NCBI GenBank assembly: GCA_002839825.1
Contig: PGYU01000006.1
Location: 1-64,000 of the forward strand
Direction of reading: 5' to 3'
Length of the DNA stretch: 64,000 nucleotides
Source of the DNA: Ignavibacteriae bacterium HGW-Ignavibacteriae-1
GTDB taxonomy: Bacteria; Bacteroidota; Ignavibacteria; Kapaibacteriales; UBA2268
The position numbers and the translations under genes were made by a program. Below are positions 7,543-35,720 of this stretch, piece by piece. The notes under the pieces were generated by a model. It searched no databases, was not told the DNA's origin, and saw only the letters and a program-made list of their open reading frames with translations. Each line of letters begins with the position of its first letter. The stretch's first letter is position 1.

Positions 7543-9843
7543 TTATTTGCTGATTACAATCGGAGTTACCATAATGCTTCCATTCAAATTAATTGTCAAG
7601 AAATAGATTCCTTGTGGGATATTTTTGATTGAATAGCTGATATTGTTTTGTCCGTCAATTGCTTGAAGTGATTCACTCAAATAAGTAGCACCTGTATATG
7701 CTGCAAGTTTGATATTTGCAACACCGGCGGCTGATTCAAATTGAATATTAAGCATCTCGCTAACAGGATTAGGGAATACTGTAGTTTCAATTTTGAAGAT
7801 TGTGCTTACGCTTGAAGTGGAAATAGGCGACATTTCGATTTCCTTGCTGAGGTCGTTGTTGTCCGTAGTTAAGTCAACTTCATAGCTAAATGGATGGAAT
7901 CCAACTTTGTCCAAAACGATTGTGTATTTGCCGTTCGGAATTTGGTTCAATTCAAAATTACCGTACTCATCAGTACTAATGCTTTTCACAGGATTATTCT
8001 GCATATCGAAAATATATACATTTGCTCCGTTTAGCCCTTTTGCACCTTGAAATTCGTCATCGCCGGATTTGATACTTCCTGTTCTTTCTCTGACGAATCC
8101 ATTTATTCTGCCGTTACCATGAACTTTTTCAAATATCGGAAGTGTCAAAGTATAAGGTCCGAAGACGCCTTCTTCTTCTACTTCAAACTCAGTAGCATCT
8201 TTCCACTTAGCTGATACTTCTTTGCCTTCTACATAGAATCCGGGCATATAGACTTTATCTCTCGTGTTAGCATATAAAATATAAGTGCCTGGCATTAAGT
8301 TTTCGATTTCGAAGTTGCCGTTTTCATCAGTCACAGCAGATTTGCTATAGAATCTGAATTTTCCGTTCTTATTTCCCGGGTCAGTGCAATATGCACTTAC
8401 AACTACATTTACGAGATTAATATCATCAACACTTACAACTTTACCTTTGATTGAATTCTCGTAAGTAGGAACTCTATCGAGTGCAAAGTCAATCTCCGAG
8501 ATGTTTTCATTGACTACAAGAATCGTTGCATCTTGGATATTGTTTGCCAATTTGTAATATTGAGGCAAATATTGATTTGTCATAGCACCTGAGTTAGGCT
8601 TCAGAGCATGAGCAAAAACAATGTATTCGGCTTCGGGCAATTTGATGGAATATTCGCCAAAATGGTCAGTAACGACTTCCAAATTGTAATTATGATTGCG
8701 ACTATCCAAACCGATAAACTTTACGTATGACCATTTGATTGGCTCAAGAGTTTCGGCATCAAGCACTTTACCCGATACTTTAAAGAATTCGGGTTCTTTG
8801 ACCGGTTCGACGACAAAATCGAAAGTATAAGTTTTTTCACATTCGATTTTTATAGGAGTTGCGTCCATATAGTTGGTAGCATTTTCGTACCATACCGGGT
8901 GATATGGTTTTTGATGTTTAGTGTAAGCACTAATTTGCAAATAATACTCTCCGGCATCAACGCCTTTGAATTCGTATTTACCTTCGACAATTCGTGCATC
9001 GTAAACACGATGCTTTGAGATGCCACCATCGTTAGAGCCGTCAGTCCAAAAGAGCATAGCAGTTCCAAATTCTACAAGTGTACCGTCTTCATCAATTACT
9101 TCGCCCGATACGACAGCAGGTACTTTGCAATGCATAACTTCAACAGCCCAAGTGAATTTGGCATTTACTTCACCATCTTCGGTAGTTGCTTTAGCCAAAA
9201 GAGTAAAAGTATAATTACCACCTTCGGTTGGAGTCCATTTTACGATCATATTTTCTACGTCAAGCACTGCACCTTCCGGAGAATGTTCTAACTTGATTTC
9301 TAAGTCTGTGTAATCAACATTTGCTTCGATTTCAAACTCAAATGTATATTCATCGCCAATTGTAGCTTTGTGTGCCGGTTTGCCCACAATCATGAATTTA
9401 TTGTGGTTTTGATTGTCTTTTTTCAAATTAACAATCTTAATATGGGAGCCTTCAGATTCATGTCCGCCGGCGTAAGCAGTAACGTAAAAAGACACCACTT
9501 TCGATTTGGTAACTAATTCACGAATCAGGTATTGGAAGTAATGCTTTTGATGGCTCAAATTTTCGTCGTCTAAATCTATTTTCTTGTATAATGTGAATTC
9601 ATGATAGTCTTTGCTTTCGCCGTAAAATATGTATAATCCAAATCCTTCAAGGTCCGGATTCTCGTCTACCCAGCCTAAGTTCAGTATTGCTGTGATAGTA
9701 TCATCAACTTCTTTGAATATTTTGCCGTCAGCATATTCAAATCGGGGCGCTTTCAAATCTTCCGCCTGTATTGTATTTATGTTGCCTAATGCAAATAATG
9801 CAATCGCAACTAAAACCGTAATTTTTTGGTAAAAAGATGACAT
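7543..9843 (-). CDS. Large T9SS cargo protein with carboxypeptidase-regulatory-like repeats
   Basis: A signal peptide (about 1-27, ending 'NTIQAED') leads into an N-terminal domain, a putative Ig (He_PIG-like) domain near 155-235 ('ATIGDEYTFEFEI', 'VKWTPTEGGNYTFTLLA'), then at least four carboxypeptidase-regulatory-like/CnaB-like modules with the recurrent 'DENGNFEIENLMPGTYILYA' pattern. The last ~75 residues are a T9SS type A sorting domain ('VFPNPVSEMLNIQF', 'IPQGIYFLTI', end 'TPIVISK'). The product should be exported and surface-attached, possibly as a stalk or adhesin. AGGAG lies just before the ATG on the minus strand. It is monocistronic between two terminator/intergenic regions. Confidence 0.85.
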   Translation of the reverse strand: MSSFYQKITVLVAIALFALGNINTIQAEDLKAPRFEYADGKIFKEVDDTITAILNLGWVDENPDLEGFGLYIFYGESKDYHEFTLYKKIDLDDENLSHQKHYFQYLIRELVTKSKVVSFYVTAYAGGHESEGSHIKIVNLKKDNQNHNKFMIVGKPAHKATIGDEYTFEFEIEANVDYTDLEIKLEHSPEGAVLDVENMIVKWTPTEGGNYTFTLLAKATTEDGEVNAKFTWAVEVMHCKVPAVVSGEVIDEDGTLVEFGTAMLFWTDGSNDGGISKHRVYDARIVEGKYEFKGVDAGEYYLQISAYTKHQKPYHPVWYENATNYMDATPIKIECEKTYTFDFVVEPVKEPEFFKVSGKVLDAETLEPIKWSYVKFIGLDSRNHNYNLEVVTDHFGEYSIKLPEAEYIVFAHALKPNSGAMTNQYLPQYYKLANNIQDATILVVNENISEIDFALDRVPTYENSIKGKVVSVDDINLVNVVVSAYCTDPGNKNGKFRFYSKSAVTDENGNFEIENLMPGTYILYANTRDKVYMPGFYVEGKEVSAKWKDATEFEVEEEGVFGPYTLTLPIFEKVHGNGRINGFVRERTGSIKSGDDEFQGAKGLNGANVYIFDMQNNPVKSISTDEYGNFELNQIPNGKYTIVLDKVGFHPFSYEVDLTTDNNDLSKEIEMSPISTSSVSTIFKIETTVFPNPVSEMLNIQFESAAGVANIKLAAYTGATYLSESLQAIDGQNNISYSIKNIPQGIYFLTINLNGSIMVTPIVISK

Positions 9844-30759: not shown

Positions 30760-30868
30760 ATAAAAAAGTTCTTGTTTATTAAGGCGCAATATCTTAATAT
30801 TGCCAAATTATTTTCTGCAATATGAAATAATATGCTTTTGGTGTACAAACAATTTTTGGAGTTTTAAA

Positions 30869-32197
30869 ATGGCAAAGAAAAATACTAAAACTGACAATCT
30901 TGCAACTAAAGAGATTGCGACTGATAAAAAGACAATCAATAAAGTGAAAACTGAAGTTGCTACTAAGAGCGTTGCATCCAAGAAGGATGTAGGAAAATCA
31001 AGTTCTGCCCCAAAAGCCGCAGCGAAGCCCGTAGCTAAGAAGGAGGTCGCAAAAGCTGTACCAAAAGCAGCAGCGAAACCCGTAGCTAAGAAAGAAGTTG
31101 CAAAGCCTGCTCCAAAAGCAGCCGCCAAACCTGCTGCTAAGAAGGAAGTCGCAAAACCGACTCCAAAAGCAGCCGCAAAACCCGTTGCTAAGAAGGAAGT
31201 CGCAAAAGCTGCACCAAAAGCCGCTGCAAAGCCCGTAGCTAAGAAGGAAGTGGCAAAGCCGGCACCAAAAGCTGCCACAAAGCCCGTTGCTAAGAAGGAA
31301 GTCGCAAAAGCTTCACCAAAAGCTTCCTCAAAACCCGCAGCGAAACCTGTAGTTAAGAAGGAAGCACCAAAAGCTGCACCAAAAGCCGCAGCTAAGAAAG
31401 AGGTCGCAAAAGCAGCACCAAAAGCTGCCGCTAAGCCTATAGCTAAGAAAGAGGTTGCAAAAGCAGCACCAAAAGCAGCAGCGAAGCCCGTAGCTAAGGT
31501 AGAAGAAAAACCTGTAGCCAAAGTAACCGCTAAAAGCACTGCTAAAAAGACTACTAAAGTTGCAGCCAAGAAAGCAGCACCAAAATCAACGAAGTCAATT
31601 GTTTCGATTCCTTCAAAAGCAAAGCAAGCTGATGTAGTTGAAATGACTGAAGCTGAAAAAAAAGCAGAAGCGAAAAAGAAAGCAAAGAAGAGTTTAGTTG
31701 ACGAAACCGGCGAACACACCTTAACTTATGTTAGAGAGAAACCTGAAGAAATCGGTGCCTTTGCACCGGCTGTAACTGTTCGCTATTCTGATGATGATTT
31801 GTCAATGTTCGAAAGTGTCGTGAATCAATCCAAAGCAGAAGCTATGGACGAAATGCGAATGTTGAAGGAAAGACTTGATGATTTGACAAGCTTTGATATG
31901 GCTGAAGAAAGCATGATTTATTCGATGCATATGGCTGAACAAGGCTCGGAAGCTCAAGAGAAAGAAAAAACATACTCGCAAATCCAAAGAATTCACGAAT
32001 ATATCAAAAAACTCGACGAAGCTTTGGATAGAATTCGCAACAAATCATACGGTATTTGCCGTGTTTGTAACTGCCTCATAGCCAAAGAACGCTTACTTGC
32101 AGTTCCCGTTACAACATTATCTGCATCTTACAAGATACACCAAAGATGCCCCGAAGACGGACTCGACAAAATCGAACCGGTTAAGAACCAAGCATAA
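30869..32197 (+). CDS. DksA/TraR-like protein with a histone H1-like Lys/Ala repeat tail
   Basis: The start is taken at ATG 30869, preceded by GGAG at 30858-30861, rather than an in-frame upstream codon. Residues about 45-215 are tandem ~17-residue repeats of the type 'PKAAAKPVAKKEVAKAA', highly basic like histone H1 tails. The C-terminal ~130 residues form a coiled coil and a DksA/TraR finger region ('YGICRVCNCLIAKERLLAVP'). The second zinc CxxC of DksA is replaced ('TLSASYKI'), as in many Bacteroidota members. The architecture suggests a nucleoid- or RNA polymerase-associated protein. The exact role is unknown. A terminator follows. Confidence 0.85.
   Translation: MAKKNTKTDNLATKEIATDKKTINKVKTEVATKSVASKKDVGKSSSAPKAAAKPVAKKEVAKAVPKAAAKPVAKKEVAKPAPKAAAKPAAKKEVAKPTPKAAAKPVAKKEVAKAAPKAAAKPVAKKEVAKPAPKAATKPVAKKEVAKASPKASSKPAAKPVVKKEAPKAAPKAAAKKEVAKAAPKAAAKPIAKKEVAKAAPKAAAKPVAKVEEKPVAKVTAKSTAKKTTKVAAKKAAPKSTKSIVSIPSKAKQADVVEMTEAEKKAEAKKKAKKSLVDETGEHTLTYVREKPEEIGAFAPAVTVRYSDDDLSMFESVVNQSKAEAMDEMRMLKERLDDLTSFDMAEESMIYSMHMAEQGSEAQEKEKTYSQIQRIHEYIKKLDEALDRIRNKSYGICRVCNCLIAKERLLAVPVTTLSASYKIHQRCPEDGLDKIEPVKNQA
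31009..31500 (+). repeat. In-frame tandem repeat (about 51-bp unit) encoding Lys/Ala tail
   Basis: About nine degenerate units of roughly 51 bases encode PKAAAKPVAKKEVAKxA. Codon choices vary between units, so the repeats are old or under purifying selection at protein level. Slippage could change their number. Confidence 0.85.
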
Positions 32198-32573: not shown

Positions 32574-33908
32574 ATGAATTCCAATTTTTTTTATATTTTT
32601 TGTTACTTTTTCATTATATCTACTTTCGAATGCTTCGCTCAAACCGGAAAATGGGAAGTGGTTGCAGATATGTATATAAAAGGTAGCGGTGATAGTTATT
32701 GGGCTTGTCAGATGATTGACATTGTATCACCAAACGGGAAAGACATTATGGTGGTCGGGAATGTTAATTTTAATAGTCCCCACATATTGCAAAGTTCTGA
32801 TTCGGGCAAAAGCTATAACTATACTTTAAAAACTCCACCAAGCGTTTATGAATCCCAAGCAAACGCAATTAGCTATCCTGATACTTCGCTTGCAATATTT
32901 GTATGCGATTCCGGGTACTATTACCGCACGACCGATAATGGCAAAAATTGGAATAAGCATCAGTTTGAAAATAAAGAAAAGTCATATTTAATTGAATTTT
33001 GGGATAATAAAAATGGAATTGTTTTTCAGAATAATCAAATAATTCTCCGAACAACAGACGGTGGCGAAACATGGATTGATTTCCCCAAAGTTCCTGTTAT
33101 CAATATGATTCAAGCATCACATCTCATATTATTTGACAAATATTCAGCATATTTTATTGAGGCGGACACAAAAATTGATTCAATTTTTTATTTTCATAAA
33201 ACAACGGATTTCGGTACAACATGGGAAACATATCCGGGTACGGAATATCCGCCTGGGGGAAGTTTTCATTTTGTAAATGAAAATCTCGGCTTTAATTATG
33301 GAGGAATAAGCAGGGGACAATTTAAGGGTAATAGGAAATTTATTCGTAAAACTACCGATGGGGGTAGAAGTTGGAAATTTGTTTTTGATCATGAGGTATC
33401 CCCACACGACCGTGTGGTTTCACTACACTTCGCCGATTCTTTGCATGGCATAGCAACTACTTTAGCCTATGTATATCAAACAACCGATGGTGGAGAAACT
33501 TGGGAGTGGGACCCGAGTTTCACAACTGCCGAATTTTATGAACGAATTAGTACTGTTATAATGCTTGACCAAAACAGTGCTGCGGCATTGGCAATGAATA
33601 CTTGGAGAAATATTTACAGGTACTCAAGATTTGGAGTTTCGGACATTAACGATTTCGAGTTTAATTCTGAAAATCAATTTTCTATTTATCCAAATTCGGC
33701 AACGGAAGATATTACAATCCAAACTTCGAAAGGTTTCAAAACTTCCGAAGTTTACGGTATCAAAATTTTCAATACGCTTGGGGAATTAGTAATGTCCGTA
33801 GAGACACGGCATGCCGTGTCTTTGCCAAGAATTGATATTTCGCAACTCCCTCGTGGCGTATTTTACCTCCGCATCGGCAGCCAAACGCAGATGTTTGTGA
33901 AGATGTAA
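32574..33908 (+). CDS. T9SS cargo protein with BNR/YCF48-like propeller
   Basis: A signal peptide (about 1-23, ending 'CFAQ') leads into a propeller with repeated Asp-box-like turns 'TTDNGKNW', 'TTDGGETWIDF', 'TTDGGRSWKF' and 'TTDGGETWEWD'. The C-terminal ~80 residues are a type A sorting domain ('FSIYPNSATEDITIQ', 'KIFNTLGELVMSV', 'LPRGVFYLRIGSQTQMFVKM'). A 20-bp perfect palindrome lies in frame inside the sorting-domain coding region, coding 'ETRHAVSL'. The last ~60 bases are nearly identical to the end of the next gene. Function is unknown. Confidence 0.82.
   Translation: MNSNFFYIFCYFFIISTFECFAQTGKWEVVADMYIKGSGDSYWACQMIDIVSPNGKDIMVVGNVNFNSPHILQSSDSGKSYNYTLKTPPSVYESQANAISYPDTSLAIFVCDSGYYYRTTDNGKNWNKHQFENKEKSYLIEFWDNKNGIVFQNNQIILRTTDGGETWIDFPKVPVINMIQASHLILFDKYSAYFIEADTKIDSIFYFHKTTDFGTTWETYPGTEYPPGGSFHFVNENLGFNYGGISRGQFKGNRKFIRKTTDGGRSWKFVFDHEVSPHDRVVSLHFADSLHGIATTLAYVYQTTDGGETWEWDPSFTTAEFYERISTVIMLDQNSAAALAMNTWRNIYRYSRFGVSDINDFEFNSENQFSIYPNSATEDITIQTSKGFKTSEVYGIKIFNTLGELVMSVETRHAVSLPRIDISQLPRGVFYLRIGSQTQMFVKM
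33802..33821. repeat. 20-bp perfect palindrome inside T9SS sorting-domain coding sequence
   Basis: AGACACGGCATGCCGTGTCT is its own reverse complement. It is preceded by GTAG and followed by TT. It lies in frame between the codons for 'LVMSV' and the 'LPRGVFYLRIG' strand and codes for a loop insertion in the sorting domain. Confidence 0.9.
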
Positions 33909-33917
33909 ATATCGTAG

Positions 33918-33938
33918 GGACAGAACAGCGTTCTGTCC
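33918..33938. repeat. Palindromic element after the T9SS gene
   Basis: GGACAGAAC (33918-33926) and GTTCTGTCC (33930-33938) are perfect inverted arms around AGC. The GTAG at 33914-33917 before it echoes the GTAG before the palindrome at 33802. No T-run follows, so it is a weak terminator at best. Confidence 0.75.
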
Positions 33939-34007
33939 AAACAGTTTCGTTCTGAATTTCAAGGATTTTTTTTTAATGTGCTTATGTATTATAAAATGGA
34001 GAAAATT

Positions 34008-35279
34008 ATGAGAAAATATTTAATACTTGTAGTTATCATGTGCTACTCATTTGTACATGTAAATGCTTCAAACCCTGAATGGGTGAAGATTAATGATTTG
34101 AGAACGTATAATGTTACATTTTTGGACGGAAACATTTGGTATGGGAACGAAAAAAATGGTTTGACAAAGATAAATCTTGAATCCGGGACTAGTACAATTT
34201 TTAACTCTTCGAACTCGCCTATTCCTAATGGTGTAAGTCGTTTTGCATTTGATGAATTTAAAAATATTTGGCTCCCACGAGATTCTTTTTTCTTAGTTTA
34301 TGACAATCAAAATTGGACAAAAGTAAATTATGACTTTTACAATTTGATTGAAAATGATTACGATTTTTTTGCTGAATCTTTTTCGATTGATAAATATAAT
34401 AATAAATGGCTCGGCAGCCAATATACCGGTCTATTTAAATTTAATGATACAGAGTGGAAACGATATAGTGCCTCAAATTCGGAATTGAACGGTAATTGGG
34501 TGAGGAGGTTATTTCCAGATGGGAATGATTTGTGGATAAATGCCAATGATAAATTGGTTATCATGGATATCATTACTGAAGAATTTACTACAATTCTTAC
34601 ATTGACTTATGATGATTACGATATTTCAATTCGGATGCCGGAAATATTTTGCAAGGATACAGAAGGAAAAATTTGGATTTTAAATCCTTCGACTTATTTT
34701 TTAATTTATGATGGCGAGAATTGGGATTTTCTTAGACCTGAATTAGATATACCAATCAAAAATCCTTATTTGAGGTCAATGGCAATAGATAAAAACAATA
34801 AGATTTGGGGCGGCGTATCGGCAGCTACTGACAATAGTGGAATAATAATGTATGATGGTATGGACTGGAATTTCTTTAAATATGATGTTGAAAAATTTTG
34901 GGTATATTCAATTGCAGTAGATGATAATAATAATAAATGGTTTGAGACAGCAATTGGGCTTTATGTTTATCGCGAGGGTGGCGTCAGCAATGATATTCTT
35001 TCTCTCACAAGCGTAGATGATGCATTAGTTCCTAAATCAAATGGGATTTTACTTTCTCCCAACCCCGCAAGCGAATATATCACAATTTCGAAACCTTCCG
35101 AAGGTTTCGAACCTTCGGAAGGTTCAGACATCAAAATCTTCAATACATTGGGCGAATGCGTGCTAAACGAATCAATTCATCCGATGACTCCCAGTCATCG
35201 GATGAATGTAGAATCTCTGACTCGCGGCGTGTATTACATCCGCATTGGCAACCAAACGCAGATGTTTGTGAAGATGTAG
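34008..35279 (+). CDS. T9SS cargo protein with Reg_prop-like propeller
   Basis: I place the start at ATG 34008, because GGAG at 33998-34001 is 6 bases upstream and a signal peptide (ending 'VHVNAS') follows; in-frame ATGs at 33978-33996 are less likely. The body has repeats like those of two-component-regulator propellers ('NNKWLGSQYTGLFKFNDTEW', 'NNKIWGGVSA', 'NNNKWFETAIGLYVY'). The type A sorting domain ends 'RGVYYIRIGNQTQMFVKM'. Two palindromic insertions are read in frame in the sorting region ('KPSEGFEPSEGS' and 'SIHPMTPSHRM'). The cargo role is unknown. It was probably duplicated or gene-converted with its neighbour at the 3' end. Confidence 0.82.
   Translation: MRKYLILVVIMCYSFVHVNASNPEWVKINDLRTYNVTFLDGNIWYGNEKNGLTKINLESGTSTIFNSSNSPIPNGVSRFAFDEFKNIWLPRDSFFLVYDNQNWTKVNYDFYNLIENDYDFFAESFSIDKYNNKWLGSQYTGLFKFNDTEWKRYSASNSELNGNWVRRLFPDGNDLWINANDKLVIMDIITEEFTTILTLTYDDYDISIRMPEIFCKDTEGKIWILNPSTYFLIYDGENWDFLRPELDIPIKNPYLRSMAIDKNNKIWGGVSAATDNSGIIMYDGMDWNFFKYDVEKFWVYSIAVDDNNNKWFETAIGLYVYREGGVSNDILSLTSVDDALVPKSNGILLSPNPASEYITISKPSEGFEPSEGSDIKIFNTLGECVLNESIHPMTPSHRMNVESLTRGVYYIRIGNQTQMFVKM
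35091..35125. repeat. Two tandem 17-bp palindromes inside the sorting-domain region
   Basis: AAACCTTC-C-GAAGGTTT (35091-35107) is followed by GAACCTTC-G-GAAGGTTC (35109-35125). They are read in frame as Lys-Pro-Ser-Glu-Gly-Phe-Glu-Pro-Ser-Glu-Gly. The preceding gene carries a related AAAGGTTTCAAAACTTCCGA stretch at the equivalent site (33728 onward). Confidence 0.85.
35175..35207. repeat. Perfect inverted repeat (15-bp arms) inside the sorting-domain coding sequence
   Basis: ATTCATCCGATGACT (35175-35189) and AGTCATCGGATGAAT (35193-35207) are perfect arms around CCC. They lie in the same place relative to the sorting domain as the 20-bp palindrome of the preceding gene, although the sequence is unrelated. 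Confidence 0.9.
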
Positions 35280-35282
35280 CCT

Positions 35283-35390
35283 GTCTGAACTATGATTTTT
35301 TTGATTTGAATGATTTGTGTGATTATATTATGAGTTTATATTTATATTCATCATCTTAATCACAAAAATCACATAAATCATAGTTCAGAC
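35283..35390. repeat. Large imperfect inverted repeat
   Basis: GTCTGAACTATGATTT (35283-35298) is mirrored by AAATCATAGTTCAGAC (35375-35390). The interior is partly complementary too (TGATTTGTGTGATTA with TAATCACAAAAATCA). It begins 3 bases after the T9SS gene stop and its right arm is reused as the left edge of the tandem duplication. Confidence 0.8.
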
Positions 35391-35404
35391 AATTTGCTAC
35401 TGTA

Positions 35405-35498
35405 CCGTCAGTTGTTCCAAAGTTAGTGTATCATCTTTGTTACAACTAACGACTATACTACAGATTTATCACTATCCGTAAATTATAACAACTGACGG
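35405..35498 (+). mobile_element. MITE-like element with 12-bp terminal inverted repeats, copy A
   Basis: CCGTCAGTTGTT (35405-35416) is the exact inverse of AACAACTGACGG (35487-35498). The 94-bp element has no coding capacity, and the interior contains a second short inverted pair (GTTAGTG... with ...ACAACTAAC). Copies B and C follow the same pattern. It is consistent with a miniature transposable element or a structured RNA-like repeat. Confidence 0.7.
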
Positions 35499-35535
35499 GA
35501 CATGAAAATCATAGTTCAGACAATTTGCAACTGTA

Positions 35536-35629
35536 CCGTCAGTTGTTCCAAAGTTTGTGTATCATCTTTGTTACAACTAACGACTATACTACAGATTTAT
35601 CCCTATCCGTAAATTATAACAACTGACGG
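35536..35629 (+). mobile_element. MITE-like element, copy B
   Basis: Same length and terminal repeats as copy A (CCGTCAGTTGTT at 35536-35547, AACAACTGACGG at 35618-35629), with a handful of substitutions. It arose with copy A through the 131-bp tandem duplication. Confidence 0.7.
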
Positions 35630-35720
35630 CACATGAAATATTTTGCTCAATTTGAAACTTTTTGATACGTGTTTCCGTATCACCTCCGTATTTAATAATT
35701 TCTTAACATGAGGTTTTATA

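Follow-up and report, generated by a model that had tools for sequence, protein, structure and literature searches.

The sorting domain of type IX secretion cargo in an Ignavibacteria genome is a hotspot for small palindromic repeats and recombination

Introduction

Two adjacent genes of Ignavibacteriae bacterium HGW-Ignavibacteriae-1, both encoding cargo of the type IX secretion system (T9SS), carry palindromes inside the coding sequence of their C-terminal sorting domain (CTD; family PF18962). They lie at positions 32,574 to 35,279 of the window, that is, the stretch of 64,000 nucleotides (positions 1 to 64,000 of contig PGYU01000006.1, assembly GCA_002839825.1) that was analyzed and to which all plain coordinates refer. 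How palindromic DNA comes to stand in frame within an export tag, and why at this place, is the question raised by the locus. A first reading based on the letters of the window alone (the sequence-only reading) had proposed that one loop of the domain tolerates or attracts palindromic elements, which might vary the export of surface proteins or drive gene conversion of sorting domains. Here, the two genes are viewed against their whole genome (termed G000; 3,227,209 bases in 43 contigs), its relatives, and public sequences. In G000, near-perfect inverted repeats occur in one CTD subfamily at two loops, those between strands 2 and 3 (s2-s3, loop 1) and between strands 4 and 5 (s4-s5, loop 2). 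The elements are mostly 28-33 bp long, fall into about ten or more sequence families (grouped by eye), stand in frame, and are read as short peptides. Probably, the two loops are landing and holding sites for elements akin to repetitive extragenic palindromic (REP) sequences and their inverted doublets (REPINs), which are spread among paralogs and exchanged between species by recombination.

Results

The features of the two genes on which the analysis rests are, with their basis in brackets:

32574..33908, plus strand: T9SS cargo gene 1, an open reading frame (ORF) of 444 aa with a C-terminal sorting domain (ORF list; PF18962)
33684..33905, plus strand: sorting domain of gene 1 (profile matches)
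33721..33753, plus strand: decayed palindrome of the C-type, occupying loop s2-s3 of gene 1 (imperfect inverted repeat whose 16-nt arms are 88% complementary)
33798..33825, plus strand: a-type (GTAG-type) element in loop s4-s5 of gene 1 (perfect core 33802-33821)
33978..35279, plus strand: T9SS cargo gene 2 (ORF list)
35052..35276, plus strand: sorting domain of gene 2, a predicted seven-strand sandwich (profile, model, and fold matches)
35092..35124, plus strand: A-type element, two inverted 15-bp units with a 3-nt spacer, in loop s2-s3 of gene 2 (codes residues 17-28 of the model)
35175..35207, plus strand: c-type element, 15-bp arms with a 3-nt spacer, in gene 2 (codes residues 45-55, loop s4-s5 and strand s5)

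Both sorting domains score well above the curated PF18962 cut-off of 27 bits (gene 1, 33684-33902, 44.5 bits; gene 2, 35058-35270, 45.4 bits); the likely start of gene 2, in our judgement, is the ATG at 34008. The sequence-only reading had placed the palindromes correctly, a perfect one of 20 bp at 33802-33821 and one with 15-bp arms and a 3-nt spacer at 35175-35207, and was also right in assigning these two to the same loop (s4-s5). The two tandem 17-bp palindromes it had described are present (35091-35107 and 35109-35125); jointly, they form the 33-bp inverted repeat at 35092-35124, which sits in s2-s3, so that the domain has two sockets rather than the one proposed. Its inventory of gene 1 had overlooked the decayed element at 33721-33753, the right half of which, AAACTTCCGAAGTTT, stands at 33739-33753 and the intact relative of which reads AAACTTCGGAAGTTT-nnn-AAACTTCCGAAGTTT. 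In loop s4-s5 of the same gene, the element is 28 bp long (33798-33825) and worn at the right, the 20-bp palindrome being what is left intact as its core. The sequence-only reading had further claimed that three other cargo genes of the window lack palindromes; only one further PF18962 domain is listed (7555-7779, minus strand), and this one indeed contains no arms of at least 8 bp.

Compared with ten third-order Markov copies of the window, palindromes with arms of at least 12 bp are in excess (three, two of them overlapping and all in the gene 2 CTD, versus 0.2 expected per copy), as are those with arms of at least 10 bp (seven versus 1.5). From the window alone, the 20-bp palindrome of gene 1 (10-bp arms) is unremarkable; it gains significance because the genome has eight exact copies of this 20-mer, AGACACGGCATGCCGTGTCT, all of them in CTDs.

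Not fewer than 150 PF18962 places were found in G000, all above the cut-off (150 of 216 candidates were scored), and the DNA around all 150 listed places was compared and translated. Counting arms of at least 10 bp with a spacer of at most 6 and overlaps merged, 47 palindromes reside in 33,231 b of CTD DNA, within 31 of the 150 CTDs, versus seven in 407,818 b of other coding DNA around the CTDs (odds ratio 82, Fisher p 2e-45). Another 43 were counted in 74,372 b of non-coding DNA, a figure that is biased because the stretches surround CTD genes. Loop 1 harbors 22 of the 47 CTD palindromes and loop 2 another 20, none lies in a strand, and five are in CTDs that were not segmented. The reading frames of the 31 palindromic CTDs contain no internal stops, that is, the insertions are in frame and leave the gene open. 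The proposal that the loop attracts or tolerates in-frame palindromes is thereby borne out, and the finding that would have spoken against it, an equal frequency elsewhere in coding sequence, was not made in the genome DNA compared. Partial CTDs of the palindromic subfamily also occur in short frames (C28:46045-46203, C7:3863-4051, and C38:46878-47066), one with an in-frame stop.

Elements found in loop s2-s3 are A (KPSEGFEPSEG), B (INPTVNRRVDE), C (TSEVLETSEV), D (KGLQPL), and a few others; loop s4-s5 contains a (VETRHAVSLQ), b (DVQHLGDVGHL), c (IHPMTPSHRMN), an imperfect d (PSTGSGS), and others. The two loops are combined in six ways (Ba 7, Aa 4, Ac 3, Bb 3, Ab 2, and Bc 1), and 10 CTDs have one typed loop; types were assigned at 75% match, as a result of which two C-type loops (G0_67 and G0_23) count as A here and in the following comparison. 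Within elements of the same type, third codon positions agree to 98.6% (B, n = 14), 91.7% (A, n = 12), 86.5% (a, n = 11), 100% (b, n = 7), and 93.9% (c, n = 4), versus 47-67% in the flanking strands, and the element edges look sharp by eye. Each of these five types stands in a single frame within CTDs. It is DNA rather than protein that is conserved in the elements.

Whole-genome pattern searches (at most three mismatches, two for the GTAG pattern) separated families restricted to CTDs from dispersed ones. All 15 places of B are in CTDs, and the nine of b comprise eight CTDs and one CTD fragment. The GTAG-type pattern gave 19 places, one discarded as chance, with 11 of the remaining 18 in CTDs and seven between genes; at one to three mismatches, the 20-mer AGACACGGCATGCCGTGTCT itself has two further places in CTDs and four outside. 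Of the 30 places of A, 11 are in CTDs, one of these being a fragment, and the other 19 are elsewhere, in no case convincingly within a different gene. For c there are 18 places, four in CTDs and 14 outside, of which the six inspected are all between genes. Three families (A, c, and GTAG-type) are hence also dispersed intergenic repeats. No convincing coding copy of the five families outside a CTD was seen among all outside copies of A and GTAG-type and six of the 14 of c; five of the 19 outside copies of A and some others overlap stop-to-stop frames that were judged to be spurious or to lie upstream of the real start. In size, palindromy, and copy number (28-33 bp, 9 to 30 places each), the five families resemble REPs. 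As to the mainly intergenic location of REPs near 3′ ends, A, c, and the GTAG-type correspond in part, B and b never being found outside CTDs or a CTD fragment. A also has the layout of a REPIN, AACCTTCCGAAGGTT nnn AACCTTCGGAAGGTT, that is, two inverted REPs forming a hairpin.

In 14 distinct GTAG-type elements, which were found partly with a pattern fixing the outer bases as palindromic and are not an unbiased sample, 96.9% of cells pair and 8 of 14 pairs are changed on both sides. None of 500 shuffles reached the observed values, and the signal was lost when the partners were slid. This shows that the palindrome is maintained through change, chiefly in the free 12-bp core. Membership of the a-type in the superfamily of GTAG-tagged REPs was considered and rejected because its GTAG pairs with CTAC in the stem, the tag of the superfamily being unpaired.

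To compare the same sites between species, all reciprocal ortholog pairs with a cargo identity of at least 70% were aligned (28 pairs, 27 of which were segmented; the palindrome-free pair G0_30/G1_L286 was dropped), and a loop below 75% nucleotide identity, a threshold set by us, was regarded as changed. In five pairs both loops are kept, in 12 one of them is changed, and in 10 both are, which leaves 22 of 27 with a changed loop; orthologs whose cargo proteins are up to 96% identical carry different element types. The identity of the CTD backbone minus that of the cargo (last 300 nt) was +2.8 points when both loops were kept, −6.2 when one was changed, and −10.8 when two were (Mann-Whitney p 0.008, indicative only because pairs share genes), and in 14 of the 22 changed pairs the backbone was at least 3 points under the cargo. 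The 17 pairs of the control listing comprise nine controls, that is, CTDs without elements, and six pairs of the palindromic subfamily; G0_16/L375 and G0_135/L382, with an element in one or both partners, were set aside. All nine controls keep 91-97% identity in the CTD, and seven of them at least 88% downstream. In the subfamily, the downstream 300 nt were at most 70% identical in 21 of 27 pairs, where random pairs have a mean of 61 and a 95th percentile of 67.

The cleanest case is gene 1 of the window. Compared with its ortholog in the same-genus genome G001, the cargo is 89% identical, the CTD strands 77, 79, and 73%, and the downstream DNA 91%; replacement is confined to the CTD. Genes 1 and 2 adjoin in G001 too, with their loop-2 types exchanged (a and c here, c and a′ there), and in its loop-2 segment, gene 2 shares 94% identity with the other gene of G001 versus 58% with its own ortholog. 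Replacement of the loop alone was also observed, with strands on either side of loop 1 that are 92 and 100% identical in G0_16/L375, and strands of 97 and 93% in G0_40/L383. Orthologs differ at the loops, so that the second finding that would have spoken against the proposal, loop sequences conserved as ordinary protein across species, was likewise not made in the relatives compared, and the sorting domains behave as the recombining, gene conversion-like patches that had been suspected from the window. It is possible that the palindromes drive this conversion; they may merely ride along. A variation of export with the palindromes is a conjecture of the sequence-only reading.

Two further readings were tried and abandoned. 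Copying of whole CTDs from visible donors would require a donor, and no candidate can be pointed to. As to tails orphaned when a CTD is replaced, an nhmmer search gave one clear case (C26:13994-13948), not a rule. At this place (minus strand), a truncated second CTD tail (YVRIGSRTKMFVKI*) stands behind a REP doublet following the complete CTD 64, like the leftover of a replaced end.

A profile of ten CTDs matched, at 1e-12, in 13 of 30 genomes (own included), namely, both same-genus genomes and 10 of 15 from other genera of the family, and in none of 12 genomes from other families of the order. The same-genus genomes contain 30 and 36 matches, respectively, among the matches listed. Best matches first, 20 stretches each were taken from G001 and G002 and 15 from G006, G009, G011, G012, G015, and G017. 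The 70 CTDs read from them, mostly best matches and for this reason biased toward the palindromic subfamily, include 39 with palindromes (arms of at least 10 bp); all 44 placeable palindromes are in the two loops, with seven not segmented. Palindromes in these loops occur in the two same-genus genomes and in five other genera (G006, G011, G012, G015, and G017); G009 has an 8-bp-arm case only. The relatives carry A, B, C, D, a, b, and c and also further elements, such as GTAGAGACAATTCATGAATTGTCTCTAC (G001), GGGCGAACGGCCGTTCGCCC (G006), AAATCCTCCCCACTGGGGAGGATTT (G012), GAACAAGGGAGCATGCTCCCTTGTTC (G017), and AGACTTCCGAAGTCTTGAAGACTTCGGAAGTCT (G011). As the C-type occupies either loop in G011, separate entries are supported. 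In the B variant of locus L303, TCAACCATACGG...CCGTATGGTTGA, palindromy is kept and the double changes alter residues.

The exact 20-mer of gene 1 was found at 73 places in 67 stretches of named genomes, mostly labeled Chloroflexi, Dehalococcoidia, Neomarinimicrobiota, and Bacteroidetes, and was absent from viral contigs. At four of the 73 places (L140, L145, L150, and L196), a profile built from the G000 CTDs recognized a T9SS-type CTD around the 20-mer (E 9e-18 to 1e-23). They represent four of the eight Neomarinimicrobiota stretches, from three isolates, and all have the element in loop s2-s3 and in the frame VETRHAVS. Another 65 places, from Chloroflexi to Bacteroidetes and the remainder, gave no CTD match. 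Measured against the consensus of such domains, the element in the four CTDs does not obviously lengthen the loop, and because of this, replacement rather than insertion is possible there. In another Neomarinimicrobiota stretch (L147, minus strand near 1868), the 20-mer is part of a frame of 193 aa and is preceded there by NHIHGIIEI, which we take to be a RAYT-like motif (RAYTs being the presumed mobilizers of REPs).

The structural setting of the loops was predicted with AlphaFold2 for the gene 2 CTD together with five other sequences. The gene 2 model has the seven strands of such a sandwich (mean pLDDT 84.6). Element A codes for residues 17-28, between strands 12-16 and 29-33, in a region of lower confidence (residues 21-30, mean pLDDT 62), and c for the s4-s5 loop together with strand s5. 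Fold matches include the T9SS CTDs 8qb1, 8glk, 8glj, and 7pq4 at modest E values of 1e-3 to 1e-2, the best Foldseek matches being 8qb1 (E 1e-3, TM score 0.76) and 8glk (E 3.7e-3, TM score 0.69; both by query length). The primary recognition signal lies in the last two CTD strands, and PorU removes the CTD (part of PMC4804311 used here). Part of PMC10994853 describes large contacts of the CTD with the translocon, the contact surfaces being poorly conserved and the pocket plastic. The position of the signal and the poorly conserved surfaces fit a tolerance of change in the loops.

A candidate mobilizer is the only Y1_Tnp (RAYT-like) match of G000 (L236, contig C31 26142-26480, minus strand; 209-aa frame, 27 bits). 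Six 15-bp units, AGACTTCCGAAGTCT or its complement, are distributed over its two flanks; they resemble A and C in layout and are not identical to them, and no transposition was seen. Of the 23 exact AGACTTCCGAAGTCT units in the genome, 16 are paired in doublets 64-65 bp apart. In five cases, a REP doublet starts 11 bp past the end of the match of a palindromic CTD (C7:4062, C12:121415, C26:13999, C40:553577, and C43:68598; one of the CTDs is a fragment), and a AGACTTCCGAAGTCT unit lies at most 140 nt from the stop codon in 4 of 33 CTDs of the palindromic subfamily versus 0 of 116 others. A separate observation concerns G002, where a Y1_Tnp gene (L406, C5:269580-269924) is 0.6 kb from a CTD (L375, C5:270523-270741) with the B-type variant CCATACGGTTAACCGTATGG in its loop 1 (the element at L406:2590-2609 is this one).

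Repeats also follow the two genes of the window:

33918..33938, no strand: palindrome GGACAGAACAGCGTTCTGTCC, right behind the stop codon of gene 1 (inverted-repeat scan)
35282..35391, no strand: hairpin resembling a miniature inverted-repeat transposable element (MITE), imperfect, with ends TGTCTGAACTATGATTT, directly 3′ of the gene 2 stop (arms 35302-35325 / 35357-35380)

The motif GAACTATGATT was found at most 140 nt from the stop codon in 12 of 33 CTDs of the palindromic subfamily versus 2 of 116 others. Behind gene 2 (35400-35640), two near-identical units with ends CCGTCAGTTGTT / AACAACTGACGG stand ∼131 bp apart. At 30800-32197, the window encodes a protein with a long KPAAKKEVAK-type repeat in its N-terminal part, presumably DksA/TraR-like.

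Discussion

Within a genome, some 30 to 40 paralogous cargo genes share the elements, which are exchanged between related species, often within a recombination patch that covers the CTD and sometimes as the loop alone. For the landing-site reading, which we consider probable, the simplest course would be the following. REP-like elements would enter at the 3′ ends of genes, their first entry being a transposition-like step of the REP/RAYT kind, and would then spread by ectopic homologous recombination between CTDs. They would be retained because the loops are permissive in sequence, stand at a distance from the last two strands, where the export signal is reported to reside, and are part of a domain that the protein loses once exported.

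Several observations weigh against this reading. The repeat beside the RAYT-like gene reads AGACTTC... and A reads AACCTTC..., and no RAYT was found for the other element families; G001 has no Y1_Tnp match yet many elements, so that ongoing movement by such an enzyme need not be assumed there. The compared genomes revealed neither a transposition event nor a target duplication nor a clean-ended pair of empty and filled sites, the nearest case (L375 versus G0_16) being a worn half-element swapped for another element. In 8 of the 22 changed pairs, the backbone is less than 3 points below the cargo, or above it, and the palindromic pair L382/G0_135 retains its element and 92% of the CTD. Downstream DNA of poor likeness is also seen in the palindrome-free pair G0_30/G1_L286 and in two of the nine controls (65, 67, and 71%). 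The donors of the patches are not visible because the CTD backbones of nearest paralogs are at most 92% identical (median 84%, 28 CTDs). Finally, the genomes are drafts, and repeats can mislead assemblers.

Of the other explanations, the one that survives best holds that the palindromes work at the level of DNA or RNA and that their coding position is selected, either as cruciform-prone or shared sites that start breaks and steer CTD exchange or as mRNA hairpins at gene ends that tune translation or stability. It is consistent with palindromy persisting through changes on both sides (GTAG-type; B variant in L303), with loop turnover accompanying lower backbone identity, with two sockets per domain, with recurrence in another phylum, and with the REP doublets directly after the stop codon of five CTD genes. 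However, decayed copies exist (33721-33753 in the window; L383), 119 of 150 CTDs lack a palindrome with 10-bp arms and presumably work, and the compensation may also stem from replacement by a pristine copy or from quasipalindrome correction. We regard such a job as rather unlikely.

Simple descent, with a single origin in an ancestral CTD and copying by gene or domain duplication without mobility, would account for the single frame of each of the five types in CTDs and for the absence of B and b outside CTDs or a CTD fragment. It conflicts with near-identical elements beside strands that agree at 47-67% of third positions, with the different types in orthologs, with the many unrelated families at the same loops, and with the copies of A, c, and GTAG-type between genes. 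In its pure form it was rejected on the third positions and the ortholog differences, and we find it very improbable. That the peptides are selected as functional motifs, for example, for binding the carrier PorV, with the palindromes as a by-product, would agree with one frame per element, VETRHAVS being read even across phyla, and with the large contacts of the CTD in the translocon (part of PMC10994853). But orthologs have unrelated peptides in place of one another at a given loop, the near-invariance of third positions is limited to the element, the double changes that keep the palindrome alter residues (L303), and the contact surfaces are themselves poorly conserved in a plastic pocket (same source), all of which makes protein-level selection scarcely credible. 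Chance or an assembly artifact deserves virtually no weight, even though the genomes are drafts and some CTDs are near contig ends, as chance is ruled out by the Markov copies and the 82-fold enrichment and the pattern is repeated in separately assembled genomes and in named public contigs of another phylum.

A bolder reading would make the sockets a working recombination device. By way of shared blocks that form hairpins, dozens of genes for surface proteins would exchange their export tags, along with the repeat-rich DNA that follows, in targeted gene conversion, which would continually reassort cargo and CTD. We put this forward tentatively and think it rather unlikely; were it true, the window would display its work in the swapped loop-2 types of the neighbors relative to the same-genus genome and in gene 1, replaced only across the CTD. 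Irrespective of this, the export tag is a hotspot for small repeats and recombination. It offers a natural experiment on a protein fold accepting foreign DNA, lends itself to examining whether gene conversion is promoted by REP-like elements, and bears on how surface-protein repertoires change in bacteria with a T9SS. For annotation, caution is advised: the loops of T9SS tags in this group are DNA of a mobile type, not lineage-specific motifs.

Among the titles and abstract openings listed in a literature search, none connected palindromes or gene conversion with T9SS tags in such a manner. A study of P. gingivalis reportedly deals with domain rearrangement and allelic exchange. The palindromic elements of Rickettsia stand in frame in protein genes, are retained, and are scattered over unrelated genes. 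They share with the present elements the in-frame, retained insertion, which would be a likeness of working that need not imply sequence kinship, and differ in that here one domain with two sockets is concerned and orthologs carry differing elements; they are also mentioned in PMC3733652, of which, as of the following sources, part was used. REPs and GTAG-tagged repeats are palindromes of 20-40 bp in many families, situated mostly at the 3′ ends of genes and in some cases in ORFs, to which they add short peptides, with RAYT genes as presumed mobilizers (Di Nocera et al, 2013, PMC3733652). Size, palindromy, many families, and peptides within ORFs are common to both; here, however, convincing coding copies of the five counted families were seen only in two loops of one domain, and the GTAG of the a-element is paired in the stem, whereas the tag is unpaired there. 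REPINs are inverted REP doublets that form hairpins and are distributed in extragenic space (Bertels & Rainey, 2011, PMC3116915). The doublet layout of A and C and a RAYT-like gene with flanking units recall that system, although the doublet-like elements are coding here and the repeat beside the RAYT-like gene differs from A in its outer bases. Perfect inverted repeats in protein-coding genes are known from Nematomorpha mitochondria (PMC6649704), in that case in an organelle, up to 284 bp long, and not as dispersed short families in a bacterial export tag. With the T9SS type A sorting domain (PF18962), the domain described here shares the sequence family, the predicted seven-strand fold, and solved relatives; palindromic DNA in the loops of this domain appeared in none of the listed titles and abstract openings. 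The intragenic REPs described in PMC3733652 reside in varied genes, many of DNA repair, and, apart from recB, mostly at different sites. Where earlier intragenic palindromes were mostly described as scattered over varied genes, those reported here are concentrated in one domain and two loops, in many paralogs and several genera, and another phylum has them in one of these loops.

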